A stretch of DNA of 36,326 nucleotides from Candidatus Methylomirabilis sp. (GTDB lineage: Bacteria; Methylomirabilota; Methylomirabilia; Methylomirabilales; CSP1-5). This document shows positions 1 to 27,604 of the stretch, piece by piece. A program made the translations under genes and the position numbers. Within the stretch, counting starts at the first letter, position 1. Each line of letters begins with the position of its first letter. The notes under the pieces are model-generated. The model worked only from the letters and a program-made list of their open reading frames with translations. It did no database searches and was not told where the DNA came from. Location: NCBI GenBank assembly GCA_012974305.1, contig JAAXQN010000157.1:1-36326 (forward strand), in the 5' to 3' direction.

Positions 1-1972
1 GATCCTCCCCCTCGCTCTCCACCCAGATCTCGCCCCCCTGAAGCTCCACGAGCCGTTTGGCTAGGGAGAGACCAAGACCGACTCCAGGGATCCGGCGGGC
101 GACAGCGTTCTCCCCTCGTCCAAAGGGGTCAAAGATCCGCCCCCGATCCTCCGGGCGGATTCCAATGCCGTTATCCTTCACAGAGACGGCAATGGTATCG
201 GAATCCTTAACGCGGGCTGCCATGACGACCTCGCCTCCTTCGGGCGTGAACTTGATTGCATTAGAGACCACATTCAGGAGGATCTGTCTGAACTGGTGGA
301 GATCACCCCGGATTGGCGGGAGTCCTGACTCTCCGTCGACTACGAACCTGATCCCGTGTTGCGTCGCTTGAGGAGCCATGAGGGCACCCACCTCCTCCAT
401 GACAACGAGGGGACTAAACTCGTCGCAGAAGATGGTCCTTCGACCGGCATCGACGGCGGCGAGTTCCAGCAGGTCATTGGCCAACTTCAAGATGTGCTGG
501 GCGCTGCCATAGATATTTTGCAGATACTGCTGCTGGCGTGCGGTGAGGGGGCCGACCCGCTTATCCTGAAGAAGCTCGGCGTACCCCAGAATCCCCGTGA
601 GCGGTGTCCTAACTTCCTGGGAGAGGTGGGAGAGGAACTTATTCTTGTGGCTATTGACCTCGAGGAGTTGGTGGTTCTTCTGCACCAGCTGATCATGGAG
701 CCGGGCGTTTTCCAATGCCGTGGCCGCATGATTGGCAATCGCGGACAGGAGGGCAAGATCTGCCTCCCCGAAGGGGGTTCGGTCGATCCGGTTAATCAGC
801 TGAATCACCCCGAGAACCCTGTCTGCGGTTTTCACCGGCACGCAAAGCATGGAACGAGTCACGAAGCCGGTCATGGCATCAACCTTGGATGAAAAGAGCG
901 GGTGTTTCCTGACGTCGGGGAGCACGAGCGCTTCACCGGTAGAGGCAACCCAGCCGGCGATCCCCTCTTCCGCCGCGATGCGCAGCCCCTGGAGCAACTC
1001 ACGCCCCTCCCCCAGGACCACCGCGAAGGTCATTTCTCCCGTCTCCTCCCGGAGGAGGAGGGAGCCGGCCTCAACCTTCATCAGCTCCCCCACCTGCTCC
1101 ATCACCAATTTGAGAAGTACAGGAAAATCCAGTGTGGACGTGAAGGCCGACGTAACCTGGTTGAGTACCGAAAGTTCGTGAAGCCGCTGGTGGACAGGGC
1201 TAATATCCTGGAGGATCATGACCCCGCCGGCCGCTTTGTCCTCATCCACCAGGCCGGTCATGGTCACCTTAAGGACCCGCTCGCTATGTGGAAATTCGAA
1301 CTCCTCCCGCCCTCCAGACCGTTCCATCCGCCGAACCGCTTCCGGGATCGGATCACCAAAGATGGAAAAGATGGAGATCCCCACAAGCTCGGTTTCCGAT
1401 CGCCCGAGAAGGTGGACACCAGCCGGATTGACGTACACCACCTGATGGGACTCGTTAAACTCGATGACGGCTTCTCCGATCGCCGCCAGCAACGTGTCCA
1501 GGTGTCTTTTTATTGAAAGGAGCTCTCGGGCGAGGACCGGGGGTCGTTGCTCCTGAAGACCAACCACGACCGGGGAACCTGGTTCCACCCCGTCTGTTTC
1601 GAATCGCCGGATCACCTCCAGGAGGTCCGCTACCATGCCATCCATTCGGCCCTTGGCAATGTAGGCATTCGCCCCTACCTCTTGCAGGTCCTGAAAGCTG
1701 GCAAGACCCTCGGCCATCGTCGCGGTGACCATGACGACGGGGATGTTACTCAGTTGCGGATCTTCCCGGACGTGGCGGCAGAGTTGACGGCCATCCATCA
1801 CGGGCATGATGAAATCCGTCACGATGAGATCAGGGGTAGAGAGCCGCGCTTGGTCCAACGCCTCCAGACCATTTCGAGCCTTGGAAACGCGAAAGCCCTC
1901 CTCTCCCAGAGCGTCTCCGACTCCCTCGAGGATGAGCTCGTCGTTGTCAACGATGAGGATTTCCTTCAGCAC
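1..1972 (-). CDS. Hybrid sensor protein REC-PAS-GAF-HisKA-HATPase (3' end outside window)
   Basis: Translating the minus strand gives about 657 codons open to the window edge. Order seen: receiver domain (ILIVDNDE, phospho-acceptor Asp in TDFIMPVMDG, VTAT, YIAKG), PAS domain (AVIEFNESHQVVYVNPAG), GAF domain (EEGIAGWVASTGEALVLPDVR ... VLGVIQLINR), dimerisation helix and HATPase_c with N box (LLNVVSNAIKF), DNGIGI, IFDPFGRG and GVGLGLSLAKRLV. The start is GTG at 1972, 6 nt after AAAGG; an in-frame TTG lies at 1992. The canonical H-box (SHELRTPL) reads SQEVRTPL: the phospho-acceptor His codon is CAG (617-619). Receiver and ATPase residues look intact, so loss of autophosphorylation is inferred, not shown. 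A two-component role is certain by domains; the stimulus is unknown. Confidence 0.9.
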   Translation of the reverse strand, partial: MLKEILIVDNDELILEGVGDALGEEGFRVSKARNGLEALDQARLSTPDLIVTDFIMPVMDGRQLCRHVREDPQLSNIPVVMVTATMAEGLASFQDLQEVGANAYIAKGRMDGMVADLLEVIRRFETDGVEPGSPVVVGLQEQRPPVLARELLSIKRHLDTLLAAIGEAVIEFNESHQVVYVNPAGVHLLGRSETELVGISIFSIFGDPIPEAVRRMERSGGREEFEFPHSERVLKVTMTGLVDEDKAAGGVMILQDISPVHQRLHELSVLNQVTSAFTSTLDFPVLLKLVMEQVGELMKVEAGSLLLREETGEMTFAVVLGEGRELLQGLRIAAEEGIAGWVASTGEALVLPDVRKHPLFSSKVDAMTGFVTRSMLCVPVKTADRVLGVIQLINRIDRTPFGEADLALLSAIANHAATALENARLHDQLVQKNHQLLEVNSHKNKFLSHLSQEVRTPLTGILGYAELLQDKRVGPLTARQQQYLQNIYGSAQHILKLANDLLELAAVDAGRRTIFCDEFSPLVVMEEVGALMAPQATQHGIRFVVDGESGLPPIRGDLHQFRQILLNVVSNAIKFTPEGGEVVMAARVKDSDTIAVSVKDNGIGIRPEDRGRIFDPFGRGENAVARRIPGVGLGLSLAKRLVELQGGEIWVESEGED

Positions 1973-2012
1973 GCGATGCCTTTGGCGAGAATTGGAATTC
2001 AAATCCGCTAAG

Positions 2013-2297
2013 GAATGTAGCAAGCTTTGTGCCACTTAGTGGTGCCTGAGGGGGGAGCCTTGCGCGTGCAACATACGCAAAATAAAGGGGCGAATCCTGT
2101 AGGATTCGCCCCGAGCAGATGTTGGTGGAGGCGGTGGGCCATCCGGGCCCATTGGTGAAGTAGGGTGCAAAATGTAAAGCTTCGACCCCCAATCCCGACC
2201 GCTGCGCGGACGTTAGCAACACCAGGCAGTGACTTGATGGTGCGGCCAGCTACCGGGAGTTTGCGGCACGACAGCTTTCGTTCCTGTGAACCCTTGC
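2013..2297. other. Intergenic region between the Fic gene and the sensor kinase
   Basis: No credible coding potential was seen; open frames here are overlaps of the neighbouring genes. It holds the hairpin terminator at 2087-2112 and presumably the promoter of the sensor kinase, for which I see no clear -35/-10 pair. Confidence 0.4.
2087..2112 (-). terminator. Intrinsic terminator after the Fic gene
   Basis: A 12-bp perfect inverted repeat (GGGGCGAATCCT / AGGATTCGCCCC) with a very short loop. Read on the minus strand it is followed by TTTATTTT, so it terminates transcripts from the Fic gene upstream (2298-3854). Confidence 0.75.
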
Positions 2298-3854
2298 CTA
2301 CTCGTCGGGTACTCTGGGCACGGGGCGGCCCTCGAGCCGGGCTTGGACCAGACGGGCCAGGAAGGCCGCGAACTGCTCGATGTTCTGCTTTACGCTGGCG
2401 GCTTCGAGCGCCGCCATGTATTCGTTGCGTCCCTCGACCGGCAGCACAGTCCACGGATAGCCGCCGGCGGCGAGCATGACATTCATCAGAAATCGGCCCA
2501 TACGGCCATTGCCGTCCATATAGGGATGGATGTACACAAACACGAAATGACCCAATACGATCCGCACGGACGGCTCTTCCTCCTCCCGCAGCAGATCGAA
2601 AAACGCCGGCATAAAATCGCGTACCGCCTCGTGGCGGGGAGGCACGTGCTTCGAGCGCCGGATATAGACCTGGTCGCTGCGGTAGCCTGCGAGGTCGGCT
2701 GCCCCGATGATTCCGGCGGTTACACTCGGTGTAAAGAGCTCCCGGTACCAATCGCCATGGTCACCATCAACGACTGCACCCGGGTTGTCGCCCCCGAGCA
2801 CCTTGCGCACGCTTTCCCTGACAGCCTGATAGGCCTGCCAATAACCGCGCGCCGCAAGCGCGTTGCGGTGTTCGCGGTCATCCTCGTCATCATCGGGGTT
2901 CCACGCGCCGGTGCGCACGCGCTCGATGAGGGCCGGGCTGACCCGGTATCCCTCGATCGACAGCGAATGGTAGGCGTCGGTGACATAGATGTCTTCGACG
3001 ACCTTCATATACGCATTGATGTCGGCAACTGGCCCCGGTGCGGCGGGGAACATCTCCATCACCGTCTTCCGCATCTGCTGCCACATCAGGCGAACGCGGT
3101 TAACGTAGGGCGATTGTTCGCGCGCCGGTAGAGCCAGCGCGGGTCGGTCACTGAACGGATCATTCTCGCGCACGTCATAGCCAGCTGCCCGCATCGTCTT
3201 GAGGATGTCGTCGGCGATGCGCGCGCGCCCGATATTCCGGAACGCCCCAGCAAGGCGGCCCGCCAGCGCGCTGTGGCCGCCGGCCAGCAGCAGGGCTAGG
3301 ACATCCGAAGCATCACGCACCATGGCAAGCGCGGCGCGCGCATCGGTCGCCCTTTGCGGGAAGTATCCCGGGGGACAGGCGATCAGCGCAGCCGGCAAAG
3401 AGAACAGGCGCAGACCTTCTTTCTCTTCCCGTTGTCCTTCCGCCGGTAGGGCAAGCCGGACATCGAACAGAGAGGTGTCGTGTGGTAGCGGCGTGACGCG
3501 GTTGCGCGCCTTCGGCGAGCGGACGAGCAGTTGGTGCGGCACCGCCCGGTTGCCGACATGCAGAGACAGAGATCGCTCGGGCGATAAGGACCATTCCGTC
3601 CCGAACCGCTCGTTCAGGTAGGCCGCGCAGAAGTCCCAGAAGGAGGCATACCAGGTCGTACTTTCCCCGCCAGCTCCATCCGGCCGGGCCGGGATGTACC
3701 AGCCCTTTATCACCTGGTGCAAGAACCCGTTCCGCAAGAGCCGCTCCCGATGGGTGCGGCTCAGGTAGGCGGAGCGGATGGCGACCACACCGCGCTCTTG
3801 AAGCTTTCTTAGAGCTCTAAGGGAGTCAGCCAGTTTTTCCTGCGGTCTTGCCAT
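2298..3854 (-). CDS. Fic family AMPylase with N-terminal AbiEi-like winged-helix domain
   Basis: 518 aa. Residues about 5-60 resemble the winged-helix/antitoxin domain of AbiEi-type proteins (ALRKLQERGVVAIRSAYL ... GWYIP). The C-terminal half is a Fic domain with the full catalytic motif HPYMDGNGRMGR (residues 443-454; catalytic His443). An upstream SLSIEG (297-302) matches the (S/T)xxxE(G/N) inhibitory helix, so this is a class II, self-inhibited Fic enzyme that would transfer AMP or another phosphate-containing group to a protein target. The gene stands alone, between a terminator and a 120-bp direct-repeat array directly upstream of its start. Inference: the N-terminal winged helix may bind that array and autoregulate, giving a one-protein toxin-antitoxin-like unit. 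No Shine-Dalgarno is obvious before the ATG. Confidence 0.88.
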   Translation of the reverse strand: MARPQEKLADSLRALRKLQERGVVAIRSAYLSRTHRERLLRNGFLHQVIKGWYIPARPDGAGGESTTWYASFWDFCAAYLNERFGTEWSLSPERSLSLHVGNRAVPHQLLVRSPKARNRVTPLPHDTSLFDVRLALPAEGQREEKEGLRLFSLPAALIACPPGYFPQRATDARAALAMVRDASDVLALLLAGGHSALAGRLAGAFRNIGRARIADDILKTMRAAGYDVRENDPFSDRPALALPAREQSPYVNRVRLMWQQMRKTVMEMFPAAPGPVADINAYMKVVEDIYVTDAYHSLSIEGYRVSPALIERVRTGAWNPDDDEDDREHRNALAARGYWQAYQAVRESVRKVLGGDNPGAVVDGDHGDWYRELFTPSVTAGIIGAADLAGYRSDQVYIRRSKHVPPRHEAVRDFMPAFFDLLREEEEPSVRIVLGHFVFVYIHPYMDGNGRMGRFLMNVMLAAGGYPWTVLPVEGRNEYMAALEAASVKQNIEQFAAFLARLVQARLEGRPVPRVPDE

Positions 3855-3864
3855 GGTCGTGCTA

Positions 3865-3984
3865 TATTTCGCTTATCGTGCTGTGCAGTTTTTAGCTTTT
3901 TCTGCCAAAACTCTTATAGCTTATAGTGTTGTATCATTTTAAGCTTATTATGTCGAGCAAAATTTAGCTTATCCAGTTATATCA
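3865..3984 (-). promoter_or_regulatory. Five 24-bp direct repeats upstream of the Fic gene
   Basis: Core GCTTAT begins at 3871, 3919, 3943 and 3967 with GCTTTT at 3895, i.e. exactly every 24 bp. Each core is preceded by an A/T-rich hexamer, and the fourth base after each core is G in all five units. The array is AT-rich in a GC-rich genome and ends about 10 bp before the Fic start codon. It is probably an operator/promoter array for the Fic gene; this role is inferred. Confidence 0.7.
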
Positions 3985-4012
3985 TGGTTTTGGGTCACTA
4001 TAAGGCCTTGAT

Positions 4013-4376
4013 TCACCTCAATTCCGCCCACTGATTCCCCTGAAATACTCGCGGCGTCTTAGCGGTTTCCTCGCCCCTTTCGGAATCCCGCCTGTGGCGG
4101 GAAGGGGTAAAGGGGACATTAGAGTTTTCCTGGTCCTTGCGTGGCCGCCCGGGGGGGCTGCAGACTGGCCTCGAGCCCGAGGTCCTGCGCGGTCTGAACC
4201 GCCCACGCCTCGCTCCCAAAGGAGGTGCCCCGGTTGACGCTCCGTCGGACGCGTTCCAGCTCGGTTTCCGTCATAGCCTCGCTCACCCAGGCGACCCAAT
4301 CCGCCGGCCAGGGCACGGGGTCGGGACAGGTCTCCGCCCTCCCCCACTTCTCCAGACTCGACCGCTCAGACACCAT
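4013..4376 (-). pseudogene. Truncated, frameshifted REP-associated tyrosine transposase (RAYT/TnpREP)
   Basis: The fragment WPADWVAWVSEAMTETELE and RRSVNRGTSFGSEAWAVQTA followed by LGLEASLQP is the typical C-terminus of IS200-like REP-associated transposases. The N-terminal HUH/Tyr catalytic part is missing. The usual GRPRK ending (GRPRKDQENSNVP) is present one frame away, after a run of seven Cs on the minus strand (near 4151-4157), so there is a homopolymer frameshift as well. The remnant sits just beyond the terminator of ssrA, a common landing site. It is non-functional as it stands; exact borders are uncertain. Confidence 0.7.
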
Positions 4377-4426
4377 CCGACGCGCGAGGAGCGGCTCCCC
4401 AGGCGCAGATGGCCTGCCAAAAGCAA

Positions 4427-4460
4427 GCGGGGAAAGCTCTCGTCAGAAAGCTTTCCCCGC
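4427..4460 (-). terminator. Intrinsic terminator of ssrA
   Basis: A 12-bp perfect stem (GCGGGGAAAGCT / AGCTTTCCCCGC) lies immediately 3' of the tmRNA end; on the minus strand it is followed by TTGCTTTTGG. Confidence 0.8.
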
Positions 4461-4468
4461 GCGTCGAA

Positions 4469-4822
4469 TGGTGGAGGCGGCGGGAGTCGAACCCGCGTCC
4501 GAGAACAGGCCCATAAAGGCTTCTACATGCTTAGCCTGTGTTTTTTGTCTCGCCAGTAAACGCCCCCACAGGAAGGGTCACTTACCGGCCAGCCCTTTAA
4601 GTCTCGCCCTTCTCCCCCGGGCCGGAGAAGAAAAGCCAGCTCACCTATATGACGCCTTCCCTTCCCCGGTAAGCGAGGAAAGGTGGGCGTGGCTGCTCGT
4701 TAGGCAGCCAGTGCCAGCTGTTGGTTGGCAGTTGTGTGTTTCCCATCTGTTTTACGAGGAAGATGGGACCTCGGCATGCCGCCTCTACTAACCATTGTCC
4801 CCGTCGAAACCCTTTCGCCCCC
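4469..4822 (-). ncRNA. ssrA: Transfer-messenger RNA (tmRNA, SsrA)
   Basis: About 354 nt. The 5' end GGGGGCGAAAGGGTTTCGACG and the 3' end GGTTCGACTCCCGCCGCCTCCACCA (in pieces) form the tRNA-like domain; GGGGGCG pairs with CGCCTCC with one G-U pair, and CCA is encoded. The tag frame at 4700-4744 reads GKHTTANQQLALAA followed by TAA, starting with a GGG resume codon. It ends in the ALAA degron and resembles the GK-initial tag of Bacillus. tmRNA rescues stalled ribosomes with SmpB, whose gene lies directly upstream. Confidence 0.96.
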
Positions 4823-4828
4823 CTTTCT

Positions 4829-4940
4829 GCCGACCACCGATCACCGTTGACCGCTTTGATTCGGACATAGATCATTGGTTCACGGTCGTCGGTCATCGGT
4901 TCACGGTCATCGGTCGTCGGTTATCGGTCGTCGGTCATCG
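4829..4940. repeat. Heptameric tandem array between smpB and ssrA
   Basis: Strict 7-nt period (accgatc, accgttg ... gttcacg, gtcgtcg, gtcatcg, gtcatcg, gtcgtcg). The first units are ACCG-oriented and later ones CGGT-oriented, so the array flips strand. It fills the whole smpB-ssrA gap and includes the smpB stop codon. Confidence 0.8.
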
Positions 4941-5390
4941 GGCTCTCTTAAGTGCGTCGGCGATTTCTCGTTCCTGGGTCCGGCGCTTCAGGTCTTCCCG
5001 TTTATCGTACTGTTTCTTCCCCCGGCACAGGGCTAACTCCACTTTGACCCGGCCGTTTTTCAGATAGAGACTCAGCGGAACAAGGGTTAGCCCCTTCTCC
5101 TGCACCTTTCCGATCAGCCGCCGAATCTCCGCCCGGTGCAGGAGGAGCTTCCGGCGCCGAAGCGGTTCATGGTTGAACCGGTTGGCTGGCGTGTACGGGC
5201 TGATGTGGCAATTTCGAAGAAACACCTCCCCACCCTCCACGGCCCCATAGCCGTCCCGCAGATTCGCCCGTCCCTCTCGGAGCGACTTTACCTCAGTTCC
5301 CGTGAGGGCGATGCCGGCTTCAAACGCCTCATCGATGTGGTAGTCGTGGTAGGCCTTCCGATTCGTGGTAAGTACCTTCCCATGCGCCAT
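4935..5390 (-). CDS. smpB: SsrA-binding protein SmpB
   Basis: 151 aa, the usual SmpB length. It shows the OB-fold hallmarks [33 protein letters not shown] and LIPLSLYL-type [19 protein letters not shown], and the basic C-terminal tail ([20 protein letters not shown]) that inserts into the mRNA channel. It binds tmRNA (gene 112 bp downstream) and delivers it with EF-Tu to stalled ribosomes. The stop codon lies inside a heptamer array. Start ATG at 5390 fits the family. Confidence 0.97.
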
Positions 5391-5470: not shown

Positions 5471-6352
5471 TCAGGCCTCGCGACCCGGTCCCCACAACAC
5501 CCAAGGGCCCGGGAGCGCCCGGATCGGCACCCCCCGTGAGATGAATCCCTTGGCGGCGAGGCGTACAAGTGCCCCCTCGACTTCCCCCACGGACAGGTCA
5601 AGGAGGCGGGCCATGGTCCGCTCCTGACTCGCGATGACAATCTTGAGGTATGCCTTTAATAACTGGAGAATCGCTTCATCCCGCGAAAGTTCCTCCCCCC
5701 TCTTCACCTGTTCGGGTAACCAGTGGTCCAGGAAGTCCCAGCGATAGCTGAATGTGGGTTCGTAGATTTCCTCTATCTTGACCACCCAGAGCTTTCGCTG
5801 AAGCTCCGCCATGGCCCTCTCGAATTGAGGGGTCTGTACCGGGCTTCCGAGACCGGCACGACGCCGAAGCTCACCAGTCTCCAGAGGATGCCGTTCCATC
5901 AAGGCATCCATGAGCTGGAGCGCAGGTCGGCTCAGACGGCCGTCCCGGTAGTCGAACAGGTAATCACCGCTCCGCCTGCCGTTCCGGATCAAGGCCACGA
6001 AGGCGGGCAAGATTTCACGCGACACCAGCGTCGGCTTTCCCTTGAGGAGCTTCCCATAATAGACGAGGCGCTTGGCCGGGAGGCTGTCTTTCAGCTCCCA
6101 GGTGAGGCCAACCGCCGAATCATGGTGAGTATGTTTCGGCCAGCGGGGATGACGACGGCCGCATACCGCGACGTACAGGCAGGGGAGAATGTGGCCAAAG
6201 GTGCGGAAGGTAAAACAGAAGCCGACTTCCTCAATGAATCGGAGGGCGTGCTTTTCAGTCCGAACTCTGAGATGGGGAAGGCGGTGAAAGGCCCGGTCCC
6301 TCAGTCTTTCCAAGGCCGCCCGCGTCAGCGGTGGATGCCTCTGCCGCTTCAT
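5471..6352 (-). CDS. AlkZ-related winged-helix protein (putative DNA glycosylase family)
   Basis: 293 aa. The central part (RFIEEVGFCFTF, KDSLPAKRLVYYGKLLKGKPTLVS, LPAFVALI) and the following helical repeats match the AlkZ-related/HTH_42-like proteins, distant relatives of the AlkZ/YcaQ interstrand-crosslink glycosylases. I do not see a convincing QxD/QxQ catalytic motif, so activity is uncertain. The start lies 4 bp after the stop of the DGQHR gene, so the two form one transcription unit; a shared DNA-repair or DNA-modification role is inferred. Confidence 0.65.
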   Translation of the reverse strand: MKRQRHPPLTRAALERLRDRAFHRLPHLRVRTEKHALRFIEEVGFCFTFRTFGHILPCLYVAVCGRRHPRWPKHTHHDSAVGLTWELKDSLPAKRLVYYGKLLKGKPTLVSREILPAFVALIRNGRRSGDYLFDYRDGRLSRPALQLMDALMERHPLETGELRRRAGLGSPVQTPQFERAMAELQRKLWVVKIEEIYEPTFSYRWDFLDHWLPEQVKRGEELSRDEAILQLLKAYLKIVIASQERTMARLLDLSVGEVEGALVRLAAKGFISRGVPIRALPGPWVLWGPGREA

Positions 6353-6356
6353 CTCG

Positions 6357-7481
6357 CTAGCGGTGTCGCAGGCCGTCTCGCAGTTCTCGAACTAGCGTCT
6401 CTACAGTGCCCCGCGTTCCACCGGCCAGTTTTTGACGCCACGGGCCCTCAGTCTCGAAGCGGCTGTCCCCGATTCGCTCTCTCCAAGGGGAGACAGCTTG
6501 GCGGATGGCGGCGGCATCGAACGGGTCCTTTTTAATTTCGCGGGAGGCTGCCATGACATCCGGCGAGACTCGCATAAAGGCTCTGAGCGCCGTTCCAGTC
6601 TTAATGCTGTACTTCCGCCCCGCCCAGGCCTGGGGAAATGTGCCTGCGATCGCCTTAAAATAATTCAAGAAGAAGCGGCGTGCGCCGTCACGGAGCTCCC
6701 GGGCCCGCTGCTCTCCACCAATCTTCCGTACGGTCTCGAGGAGCTCCACCATCTCGTCAGCCAAGGGTGCCTGAGAGACCTTGCCCCGCCCCACGCCCAG
6801 AATGCGGATCTCTCCTCGTAGGGGGGATGATTCTGTCTCGTTGAGCGCCCGGATGACATCATGGGCTAATGCCTGGTTCTCGTCAGCGTAAAGCCGCCGT
6901 CCGGCCAGGCTGATCAGGTGGGACGGGTTCAGACGCGTGTGCTTGGCGTTGATGGTGACGAACAGTTCCACGATTTGGCGGTCATCCAAGTTGTCAAAGA
7001 CGACGGCCGGGACCTCCATCGCTTTCAGTTCCTGGGCCGCGGCATGGAGGGCTAGCAGGCGATGTTGGCCATCGAGGGCTCGGAGGATACCCTGGTCTTC
7101 CGGAATCTGTAACAGTCCGAGGCTCGGGTTGGCCCCTCCTGGGGTGAATTTGAGCCGGCGCTCGGCGATGATGATCACTGCCCCGGGAATCGCCGGCAGG
7201 TTTCCCGCATCCTGACACTCCCGGTAGTACTGCAGCAGGTCCTCGATCTTACGACGGATTACGGGTCGCTGAAAGGCCCCCTCGCCCCGCGATATTCGCT
7301 TTTCTAAGAGTTCCCAGTTGATCCGCGAGGGGCGGCGCGGGAGCTTCGTTCGGGGTGCCTCGGGCGAGGCGTACCCTAAGACCTCGAATCGGACCAGTCG
7401 GTCAATGTCAGCCGCCGAAAAGGAAGCCTGATAAAATTCGACGCCGAACTGTCGAACCTTGTGAGCTGCAACCGTGATCAT
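6357..7481 (-). CDS. DGQHR domain protein (DndB-like family)
   Basis: 374 aa. It contains the defining motif LDGQHRLLAL, followed by FVTINAKHTRLNPSHLISLAGRR (read in two parts: FVTINAKHTRLN and PSHLISLAGRR) and a C-terminal NYFKAIAGTFPQAW segment typical of DGQHR proteins. Relatives include DndB, the regulator of phosphorothioate DNA modification, and proteins of other DNA-modification islands. No dnd, dpd or restriction genes are present here. Start ATG at 7479-7481 has GGGG about 11 nt upstream. It is the first gene of a two-gene unit with the AlkZ-related gene. Confidence 0.75.
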   Translation of the reverse strand: MITVAAHKVRQFGVEFYQASFSAADIDRLVRFEVLGYASPEAPRTKLPRRPSRINWELLEKRISRGEGAFQRPVIRRKIEDLLQYYRECQDAGNLPAIPGAVIIIAERRLKFTPGGANPSLGLLQIPEDQGILRALDGQHRLLALHAAAQELKAMEVPAVVFDNLDDRQIVELFVTINAKHTRLNPSHLISLAGRRLYADENQALAHDVIRALNETESSPLRGEIRILGVGRGKVSQAPLADEMVELLETVRKIGGEQRARELRDGARRFFLNYFKAIAGTFPQAWAGRKYSIKTGTALRAFMRVSPDVMAASREIKKDPFDAAAIRQAVSPWRERIGDSRFETEGPWRQKLAGGTRGTVETLVRELRDGLRHR

Positions 7482-7502: not shown

Positions 7503-7590
7503 GCAGTTCTCAGTTCACCGTTCTCAGTTCGTAGACGCCTCAACCCTTCGCCATCAACCGTGAACCGTGAACCCTGAACCATGAACCAGT
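7503..7590. repeat. Heptameric tandem array, gcvPB-DGQHR gap
   Basis: Twelve consecutive 7-nt units without phase break. The left half is nnnGTTC (gcagttc, tcagttc, accgttc, tcagttc), the right half nnTGAAC (cgtgaac, cgtgaac, cctgaac, catgaac), so the two halves are inverted copies. It starts at the gcvPB stop codon. Confidence 0.85.
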
Positions 7591-10835: not shown

Positions 10836-10940
10836 GAGTTCATGGTTCAGGGTTCACAGTTCACCGACCAGAGTTCAGGGTTCATAGTCAATAGTTCAGG
10901 GTCTATGAACCATCCACCATGAACCCTCAACCGTGAACCG
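10836..10940. repeat. Heptameric tandem array between gcvT and gcvH
   Basis: Fifteen 7-nt units. The first ten are mostly nnGTTCA/ggGTTCA types; then the array flips to TGAACCn (tgaacca, tgaaccc, tgaaccg), giving an imperfect hairpin. It fills the whole space from the gcvT stop to the gcvH ribosome-binding site. Confidence 0.85.
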
Positions 10941-22023: not shown

Positions 22024-22128
22024 TCCGTGGTTCGTGATTGGTGGTAGGTGGTTGGTGAAAACCACCAGCCACTAATCACTAGTCACCAGTCACTATCGGT
22101 CATCGGTCAACGGTCGTCGGTCATCGAG
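22024..22128. repeat. Heptameric tandem array, GTGG/CCAC then CGGT type
   Basis: Fifteen consecutive 7-nt units without phase break: tccgtgg, ttcgtga, ttggtgg, taggtgg, ttggtga, aaaccac, cagccac, taatcac, tagtcac, cagtcac, tatcggt, catcggt, caacggt, cgtcggt, catcgag. Three unit families follow one another, the first two being inverted copies. Confidence 0.9.
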
Positions 22129-27430: not shown

Positions 27431-27604
27431 AGTTCAGAGTTGAGAGTTGAGGGTCTAAGGTCCAACGTCCAAAGTCCGATGTCGCCAAGAGCGAGGAGGG
27501 GGTTCAATAAATCTGAAACTCGAATTTCGAAATTCGAAATGTCCAGGGTCGTCGGTCATCGGTCGACGGTCATCGTTTCCGACTGCTGATCGCTGACTGC
27601 TGTT
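27424..27604. repeat. Long heptameric tandem array between two U32 genes
   Basis: Two runs: 27424-27486 (agttcat, agttcag, agttgag, agttgag, ggtctaa, ggtccaa, cgtccaa, agtccga) and 27514-27604 (tgaaact, cgaattt, cgaaatt, cgaaatg, tccaggg, tcgtcgg, tcatcgg, tcgacgg, tcatcgt, ttccgac, tgctgat, cgctgac), with about 27 non-repetitive bases between. No gene is seen here. Confidence 0.85.

Follow-up and report, generated by a model that had tools for sequence, protein, structure and literature searches.

AbiEi and Rv2827c are autorepressors of type IV toxin-antitoxin systems that act at 23-bp inverted-repeat sites overlapping their own promoters; the AbiEi site pair lies 3 bp apart and Rv2827c has two pairs, which are inverted (PMC7319586). 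CccR of Yersinia pseudotuberculosis is a Fic-HTH protein described as repressing its own promoter via a pair of 10-bp inverted repeats separated by 26 bp (PMC9755527). SoFic, a class II Fic protein, is presented as a one-protein phage defence (PMC12249575).

The window analyzed here is a 36,326-nucleotide stretch of DNA from Candidatus Methylomirabilis sp. It contains the gene of a 518-aa protein that joins an AbiEi-like N-terminal half to a Fic domain, with a row of 24-bp units in front of it. Our preferred reading, to which we assign a probability of about 0.85, is that this one-gene module represses itself via these head-to-tail operator units, with residue 117 of the protein reading base 4 of the unit.

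Domains and relatives of the fusion protein

The gene and its parts are as follows.

2298 to 3854, minus strand: gene of the 518-aa AbiEi-like/Fic fusion (open frame; Pfam Fic 2.1e-14; start conserved in the family alignment)
3675 to 3854, minus strand: winged helix-turn-helix, residues 1-60 (AlphaFold model; winged-helix structures align to 1-60)
3135 to 3674, minus strand: nucleotidyltransferase-like second domain of the AbiEi/Rv2827c fold, residues 61-240 (structure matches 1zel, 6y8q, and 8an5)
3504 to 3506, minus strand: codon of Arg117, in a beta-hairpin loop between strands 108-113 and 119-123 (covariation with base 4; strands from the AlphaFold model)
2319 to 3110, minus strand: Fic domain, residues 249-512 (FICD Z about 24; SoFic 3eqx Z 19.8)
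2949 to 2966, minus strand: SLSIEG, residues 297-302, candidate class II inhibitory motif (S297 and E301 invariant in 78 members)
2493 to 2528, minus strand: Fic active-site motif HPYMDGNGRMGR, residues 443-454 (open frame, Pfam, family alignment)

In a fold search with the whole protein (AlphaFold pLDDT 92.3) the matches listed were all Fic folds, so the N-terminal half was modeled separately (residues 1-245, pLDDT 93.4). Residues 1-240 of this half matched Rv2827c (1zel; Z 10.3, 219 residues aligned, rmsd 4.6, over 7-240) and AbiEi (6y8q; Z 8.4, 166 aligned, rmsd 5.0, over 10-205) across both domains, bearing out the AbiEi-like N-terminus proposed in the preliminary description. The other high-scoring structures covered one domain, either nucleotidyltransferase or winged helix, as did MenT1 (8an5; Z 8.6 over 67-208, nucleotidyltransferase domain only). 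Profile search found no relative of the N-terminal half in the PDB, and Pfam, NCBIfam, and PHROGs returned nothing useful for it. No AbiEi family appeared among the Pfam matches of 78 family members, so the kinship with AbiEi is one of fold alone. A weak match to PF14407, a Frankia peptide-precursor family, was seen in 20 of these 78 proteins (alignment A3; best E 0.002).

The C-terminal part belongs to Fic by its HPFxxGNGR-type motif, its Pfam match, and its fold. SLSIEG lies within helix 290-300 and directly after it, and a weak VbhA antitoxin match covers residues 291-310. We take SLSIEG to be a class II Fic inhibitory motif, (S/T)xxxE(G/N), placed N-terminal to the Fic core. By fold and motif the Fic part is of class II type, with predicted AMPylation and self-inhibition.

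The likeness to AbiEi and Rv2827c lies in the fold of residues 1-240, where fold comparison finds both a winged helix and a nucleotidyltransferase-like domain, and in promoter sites of 23 bp there (PMC7319586) and 23-24 bp here. The sites described there are inverted, whereas here 2-8 units run head to tail, as direct 24-bp repeats in one orientation; and the effector there is a separate nucleotidyltransferase toxin, whereas here it would be the Fic domain of the same chain. No AbiEii nucleotidyltransferase toxin gene is annotated beside the plasmid homologues viewed (L099 being unannotated). Membership in AbiEi was thus considered and rejected, and the fusion family is set outside it because sequence family, inverted sites, and partner toxin are all lacking. 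CccR likewise has Fic and DNA-binding parts on one self-repressing protein, repression being predicted for ours; it differs in having an N-terminal Fic part and a C-terminal HTH (PMC9755527), whereas our protein has the opposite domain order, an AbiEi-like DNA-binding fold, and direct repeats. SoFic shares the class II design (PMC12249575), and besides the 3eqx match listed above the PADLOC SoFic model matches residues 288-506 at 8.9e-24. SoFic has no AbiEi-like half, and the likeness is confined to the Fic part: the PADLOC match spans positions 55-263 of a 361-position model rather than its whole length, and the NCBIfam SoFic equivalog scores 31.7 bits against a cut-off of 550. On our best reading, members of the family would behave as autorepressors of the AbiEi type that have their own Fic domain as effector and an operator in direct 24-bp phase.

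The repeat array in the window and across the family

GCTTAT/GCTTTT cores begin at 3871, 3895, 3919, 3943, and 3967, exactly 24 bp apart, the same five positions that the preliminary description had given. The phased triple GCTTWT-N18-GCTTWT-N18-GCTTWT occurs three times in the window, always within the array, versus a mean of 0.00 over 100 dinucleotide shuffles, and the 24-bp self-identity of the array was equaled in 9 of 5000 first-order simulations. Because its copies have only about half their bases in common, the array escapes Tandem Repeats Finder at score 30. Since the Fic gene is on the minus strand, the units read ATAAGC... toward the gene, and on that strand they form direct repeats that run up to its start codon. 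Their order is ATAAGCTAAATTTTGCTCGACATA, ATAAGCTTAAAATGATACAACACT, ATAAGCTATAAGAGTTTTGGCAGA, AAAAGCTAAAAACTGCACAGCACG, ATAAGCGAAATATAGCACGACC, then ATG. The five units, about 3853-3972 in all, were phased on the family motif, with coordinates calculated from the called units.

3949 to 3972, minus strand: unit 1, farthest from the gene, contains the predicted -35 box (unit calling)
3925 to 3948, minus strand: unit 2, contains the predicted extended -10 box (unit calling)
3901 to 3924, minus strand: unit 3 (unit calling)
3877 to 3900, minus strand: unit 4 (unit calling)
3853 to 3876, minus strand: unit 5, abuts the start codon, with the diverged core ATAAGCGAAA (continues the called chain)

An end of the array about 10 bp before the Fic start, as first described, does not hold, as the family-phased unit 5 reaches the start codon. 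Elsewhere in the window, Tandem Repeats Finder reports short tandem arrays with periods of 7, 14, or 21 bp (4872-4941, 7551-7588, 10838-10939, 22070-22126, and 27515-27602), with units such as CGGTCAT, AACCGTG, and GTTCAGG.

The preliminary description had made the presence of such repeats before homologous fusions a point on which its proposal should be judged. The best upstream period was 23 or 24 bp in 171 of 175 non-redundant loci, drawn from 189 upstream stretches, versus 63 of 875 simulated sequences. All four exceptions are damaged genes: L068 has an internal stop and has lost its N-terminus, L149 contains a TGA, L191 is split over two frames, and in L192 the match is restricted to residues 1-311. 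Other stop-bearing genes (L074, L135, L148, L163, L189, and L267) retain the array, so damage to the gene does not by itself abolish it. In the first 88 upstream stretches the best period was 24 in 86 and 23 in one; 9 diverged plasmid homologues (37-52% identity), whose unit sequences differ, gave 24 in 7 and 23 in 2, both Vibrio; a further sample gave 23 or 24 in 55 of 60 rows, counted before duplicates and one artefact were removed. Nine full-length relatives on IMG/VR contigs all had a period of 23 or 24, as did all 27 non-duplicate test stretches, three of them from IMG/VR. No match was found among 50,697 phage records searched for a phage origin.

Control stretches of the same loci gave 24 as the best period in 12 and 23 in 14 of 343 coding stretches, and 24 in 18 (a slight excess) and 23 in 11 of 230 stretches farther upstream. 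Other Fic genes of the same genomes have no comparable array: the best period was 24 in 3 of 19 non-family Fic genes, at scores of 0.48-0.50, the null level (in this control set, L114 lacks a frame and L127 is a family member whose start was called too far upstream). Alignment A3 omits L068 and L074 (stop codons) and L028 (a fragment, retained in A4). Also left out were L158, L188, L193, and L197 (N-terminus missing), L139 (N-terminus at a contig edge), the duplicates L144, L164, L178, and L196, and, from the covariation analysis, L070 and L181 (array score below 15).

The family is widespread. Homologues are present in 80 plasmid records, and a scan of genome contigs found at least 574 relatives, of which the best 80 were taken. 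At E 1e-40 or better, and with the central genome counted, the gene is carried by 32/369 genomes in the group around a Haliea genome, 13/385 around Sphingobium, 19/395 around Paraflavisolibacter, 16/337 around Granulicella, and 5/327 around Puniceicoccaceae. In the window's own phylum it was found in 2 of 95 genomes, the window's own and the sister genome G006, whose protein is 87% identical. G006 has the same array, extended to eight units and thus 72 bp longer (L008, upstream of 1957); four of the eight are near-identical and lie between the predicted -10 box and the gene, where the operator's leader part has recently expanded in tandem. Diverged homologues with a 23-bp period and other unit sequences are L095, L103, L163, L183-L187, L189, and L190. 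On pRi1724 and a Sinorhizobium plasmid (L096 and L100) the Fic gene occupies the same site, flanked by traH and a small HTH gene, then traM, with AATTAGTG-type units.

Promoter boxes and base recognition

The two units farthest from the gene contain a predicted promoter.

3951 to 3956, minus strand: predicted -35 box TCGACA (sigma70-type consensus match)
3928 to 3936, minus strand: predicted extended -10 box TGATACAAC, 17 bp after the -35 box (sigma70-type consensus match)

Unit phase 16 holds the best sigma70-type -35 box in 63 of 109 loci, the window among them. Usually the farthest called unit has TCGACA or TTGACA and the next unit TACAAC 17 bp on, often with TG before it; 56 of the 109 loci combine a -35 box of at least 5/6 with a -10 box of at least 4/6 consensus. 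A -35 box of at least 5/6 occurs at the farthest unit pair in 50% of loci, versus 7-17% at other pairs (at least 20 loci each). By consensus match, the promoter is thus predicted to be located inside the array. Cores and promoter boxes alternate, and the gene-proximal units are downstream of the predicted transcription start. Given this alternation, the protein and polymerase would be expected to occupy the region in a mutually exclusive way.

Scanning the gene strand of 109 loci with 57% identity or more gave 2-7 called units per locus and spacings of exactly 24 bp in 290 of 294 cases. When 343 variable protein columns were compared with the 24 unit positions by mutual information, a single pair stood out, namely residue 117 and base 4 (Z 30.2). 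It was followed by the neighbors 116, 119, and 120 with the same base (Z 13.5-13.9) and by 83 and 84 with base 6, 134 with base 8, and 229 with base 17. R117 accompanies G in 43 of 45 loci, G117 accompanies C in 35 of 37, D117 accompanies C in 7 of 7, and Q117 and K117 accompany A in 8 of 8. The pairings R-G, Q-A, and D-C resemble contacts made with duplex DNA. Among 54 disjoint sister pairs, residue 117 differs in 13 of the 14 that differ at base 4 versus 6 of the other 40, the smallest p (3e-7) of 2072 tests, with 229/base 17 second; the four base positions tested were picked after the first covariation analysis. Fic-domain columns (e.g., 380, 307, and 263) covary too, more weakly, and so relatedness contributes to the signal. 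Unit similarity follows the identity of the N-terminal domain (partial r 0.65) rather than that of the Fic domain (0.05), over 9727 non-independent pairs from 156 loci.

The base-4 rule was set after seeing the 109 loci, of which 102 conform. In a hold-out for which arrays were called with base 4 masked, it was correct in 10 of 16 loci: 8 of 8 at 60% identity or more and 2 of 8 at 49-56%, with T117 proteins that have G making up 4 of the 6 errors. The 16 came from 31 test loci, after 4 had been set aside as duplicates of training loci and 11 for a low array score, for having only one unit, or for a residue that the rule does not cover. This split by identity indicates a correspondence that is solid in the near family and fails in diverged relatives, not a universal code. 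The window has R117 and G in every unit. G006 has G117, and its four near-identical units have C and three older units have G; the window and G006 may represent a change still under way.

The winged helix had been proposed as the DNA reader. The AbiEi-like half is supported in this role, but the best-supported base-reading residue is in the nucleotidyltransferase-like domain, outside the winged helix, which is too conserved across the family to show covariation. The self-regulation suggested in the preliminary description gains support from this covariation together with the promoter within the array.

Covariation indicates recognition and not its sign, and the protein might bind the array to activate its gene or to switch between activation and repression. 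About 46 of the 109 loci have no promoter match at phase 16, and TACAAC is a poor -10 box. On the other hand, where a promoter is predicted, cores lie between the -35 and -10 boxes and downstream of the start, in places where a protein would block polymerase, and AbiEi and CccR are repressors (PMC7319586, PMC9755527). We consider such activation or switching improbable.

A repeat row before a toxin-like gene could also act as RNA, either as a type III-like repeated RNA antitoxin or as a structured leader. Since gene-proximal units follow the predicted start, units 3-5 would be transcribed, and some arrays fold better than shuffles (z -2.6 in the window, -4.0 in L012). The folding is inconsistent across six stretches, however, with z ranging from -4.0 to +0.8; the only Rfam match in 3700-5000 is the tmRNA; the median of about 19 bp that separates the array from the start codon is too short for a terminator; and the residue-117 pairings point to double-stranded DNA. 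With no consistent structured repeat RNA among these stretches and no Rfam family, a type III toxin-antitoxin assignment was rejected, and we regard an action as RNA as very improbable.

Because binding of the array by the Fic protein is itself a prediction from sequence, another cellular regulator could in principle occupy it, linked to the Fic protein only indirectly. We give this hardly any weight, since array and gene occur together on plasmids and chromosomes of several phyla in differing neighborhoods, and the array changes with the N-terminal domain of that very gene. A regulon beyond the family's own gene was sought with the paired core WTAASCT-N17-WTAASCT in 27 genomes and rejected: of 35 matches, 22 were at Fic arrays by position and 13 elsewhere, fewer than the 21 of the reversed control pattern, and G000 and G006 had no match outside the Fic array.

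Mobility and proposed mechanism

2296 to 4071, minus strand: gene and array block common to the window and G006, at another site there, and absent in G001 (genome comparison)

G006 has this block in different surroundings, its homology on one side stopping at the stop codon, and in G001 the two flanks of the window (1-1974 and ssrA) are 318 bp apart with the block missing. The neighbors of the plasmid copies also vary. Gene and array therefore move as one 1.78-kb block, which fits the "self-contained" module of the preliminary description.

Several other features surround the block. A 137-bp stretch at 4363-4498, which includes the tmRNA gene's 3' end along with a palindrome (4427-4460), has a copy of 87% identity in G006 (contig C166). 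ARAGORN detects no tmRNA gene at that copy, and the stretch might be what remains of the attachment site of an ssrA-targeting element. Between array and ssrA, 4105-4363 matches G005 (contig C55) at 81%, away from the ssrA of that genome. The frame at 4119-4376 (minus strand), which has no Pfam match, may correspond to the end of a transposase of the RAYT type. Some 1.5 kb away from the Fic module, a DGQHR-domain protein (6357-7481; NCBIfam 3.6e-34; PADLOC DpdB 1.8e-15, DndB 4e-4) adjoins an AlkZ-related protein (5471-6352, minus strand; Pfam 6.5e-32), perhaps the remnant of a DNA-modification or defence system.

Conservation of period and position, the joint change of protein and operator, the promoter in the array, and the shared mobility of gene and array were computed directly. 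An array present in nearly all relatives, placed within the promoter, and with a key base that tracks one residue makes the protein very probably self-repressing. In the mechanism that we propose, the array would be the dedicated operator of the downstream Fic gene, and the AbiEi-like N-terminal half would bind its contiguous head-to-tail units, base 4 being read by residue 117 in a loop of the second, nucleotidyltransferase-like domain. Since the -35 and extended -10 boxes are in consecutive units, bound protein would keep RNA polymerase out and repress its own gene. Self-repression would thus keep levels of a self-inhibited and potentially toxic AMPylator low with no need for a second gene encoding an antitoxin. 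We infer physical binding, repression over activation, one monomer per unit, and AMPylation from these patterns.

The operator DNA might, in addition, help to control the enzyme. The array would then hold Fic molecules head to tail, either inactive or modifying one another, with the number of units setting a threshold, and the AMPylator would be freed once the array is lost or cleared, for example upon plasmid loss or phage attack. We consider this extension unlikely.

The literature searched, largely open-access journal papers, yielded no account of phased direct repeats in front of a Fic gene, and within it the AbiEi-Fic family is undescribed. Under self-repression through the head-to-tail units, the family gains a testable mechanism, with a residue-to-base correspondence that can be read from genomes alone. 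An AbiEi-like fold would be employed on direct repeats, and a nucleotidyltransferase-like domain hitherto seen as the antitoxin part is indicated as a base reader. The same approach may offer a route to finding the operators of orphan Fic proteins.
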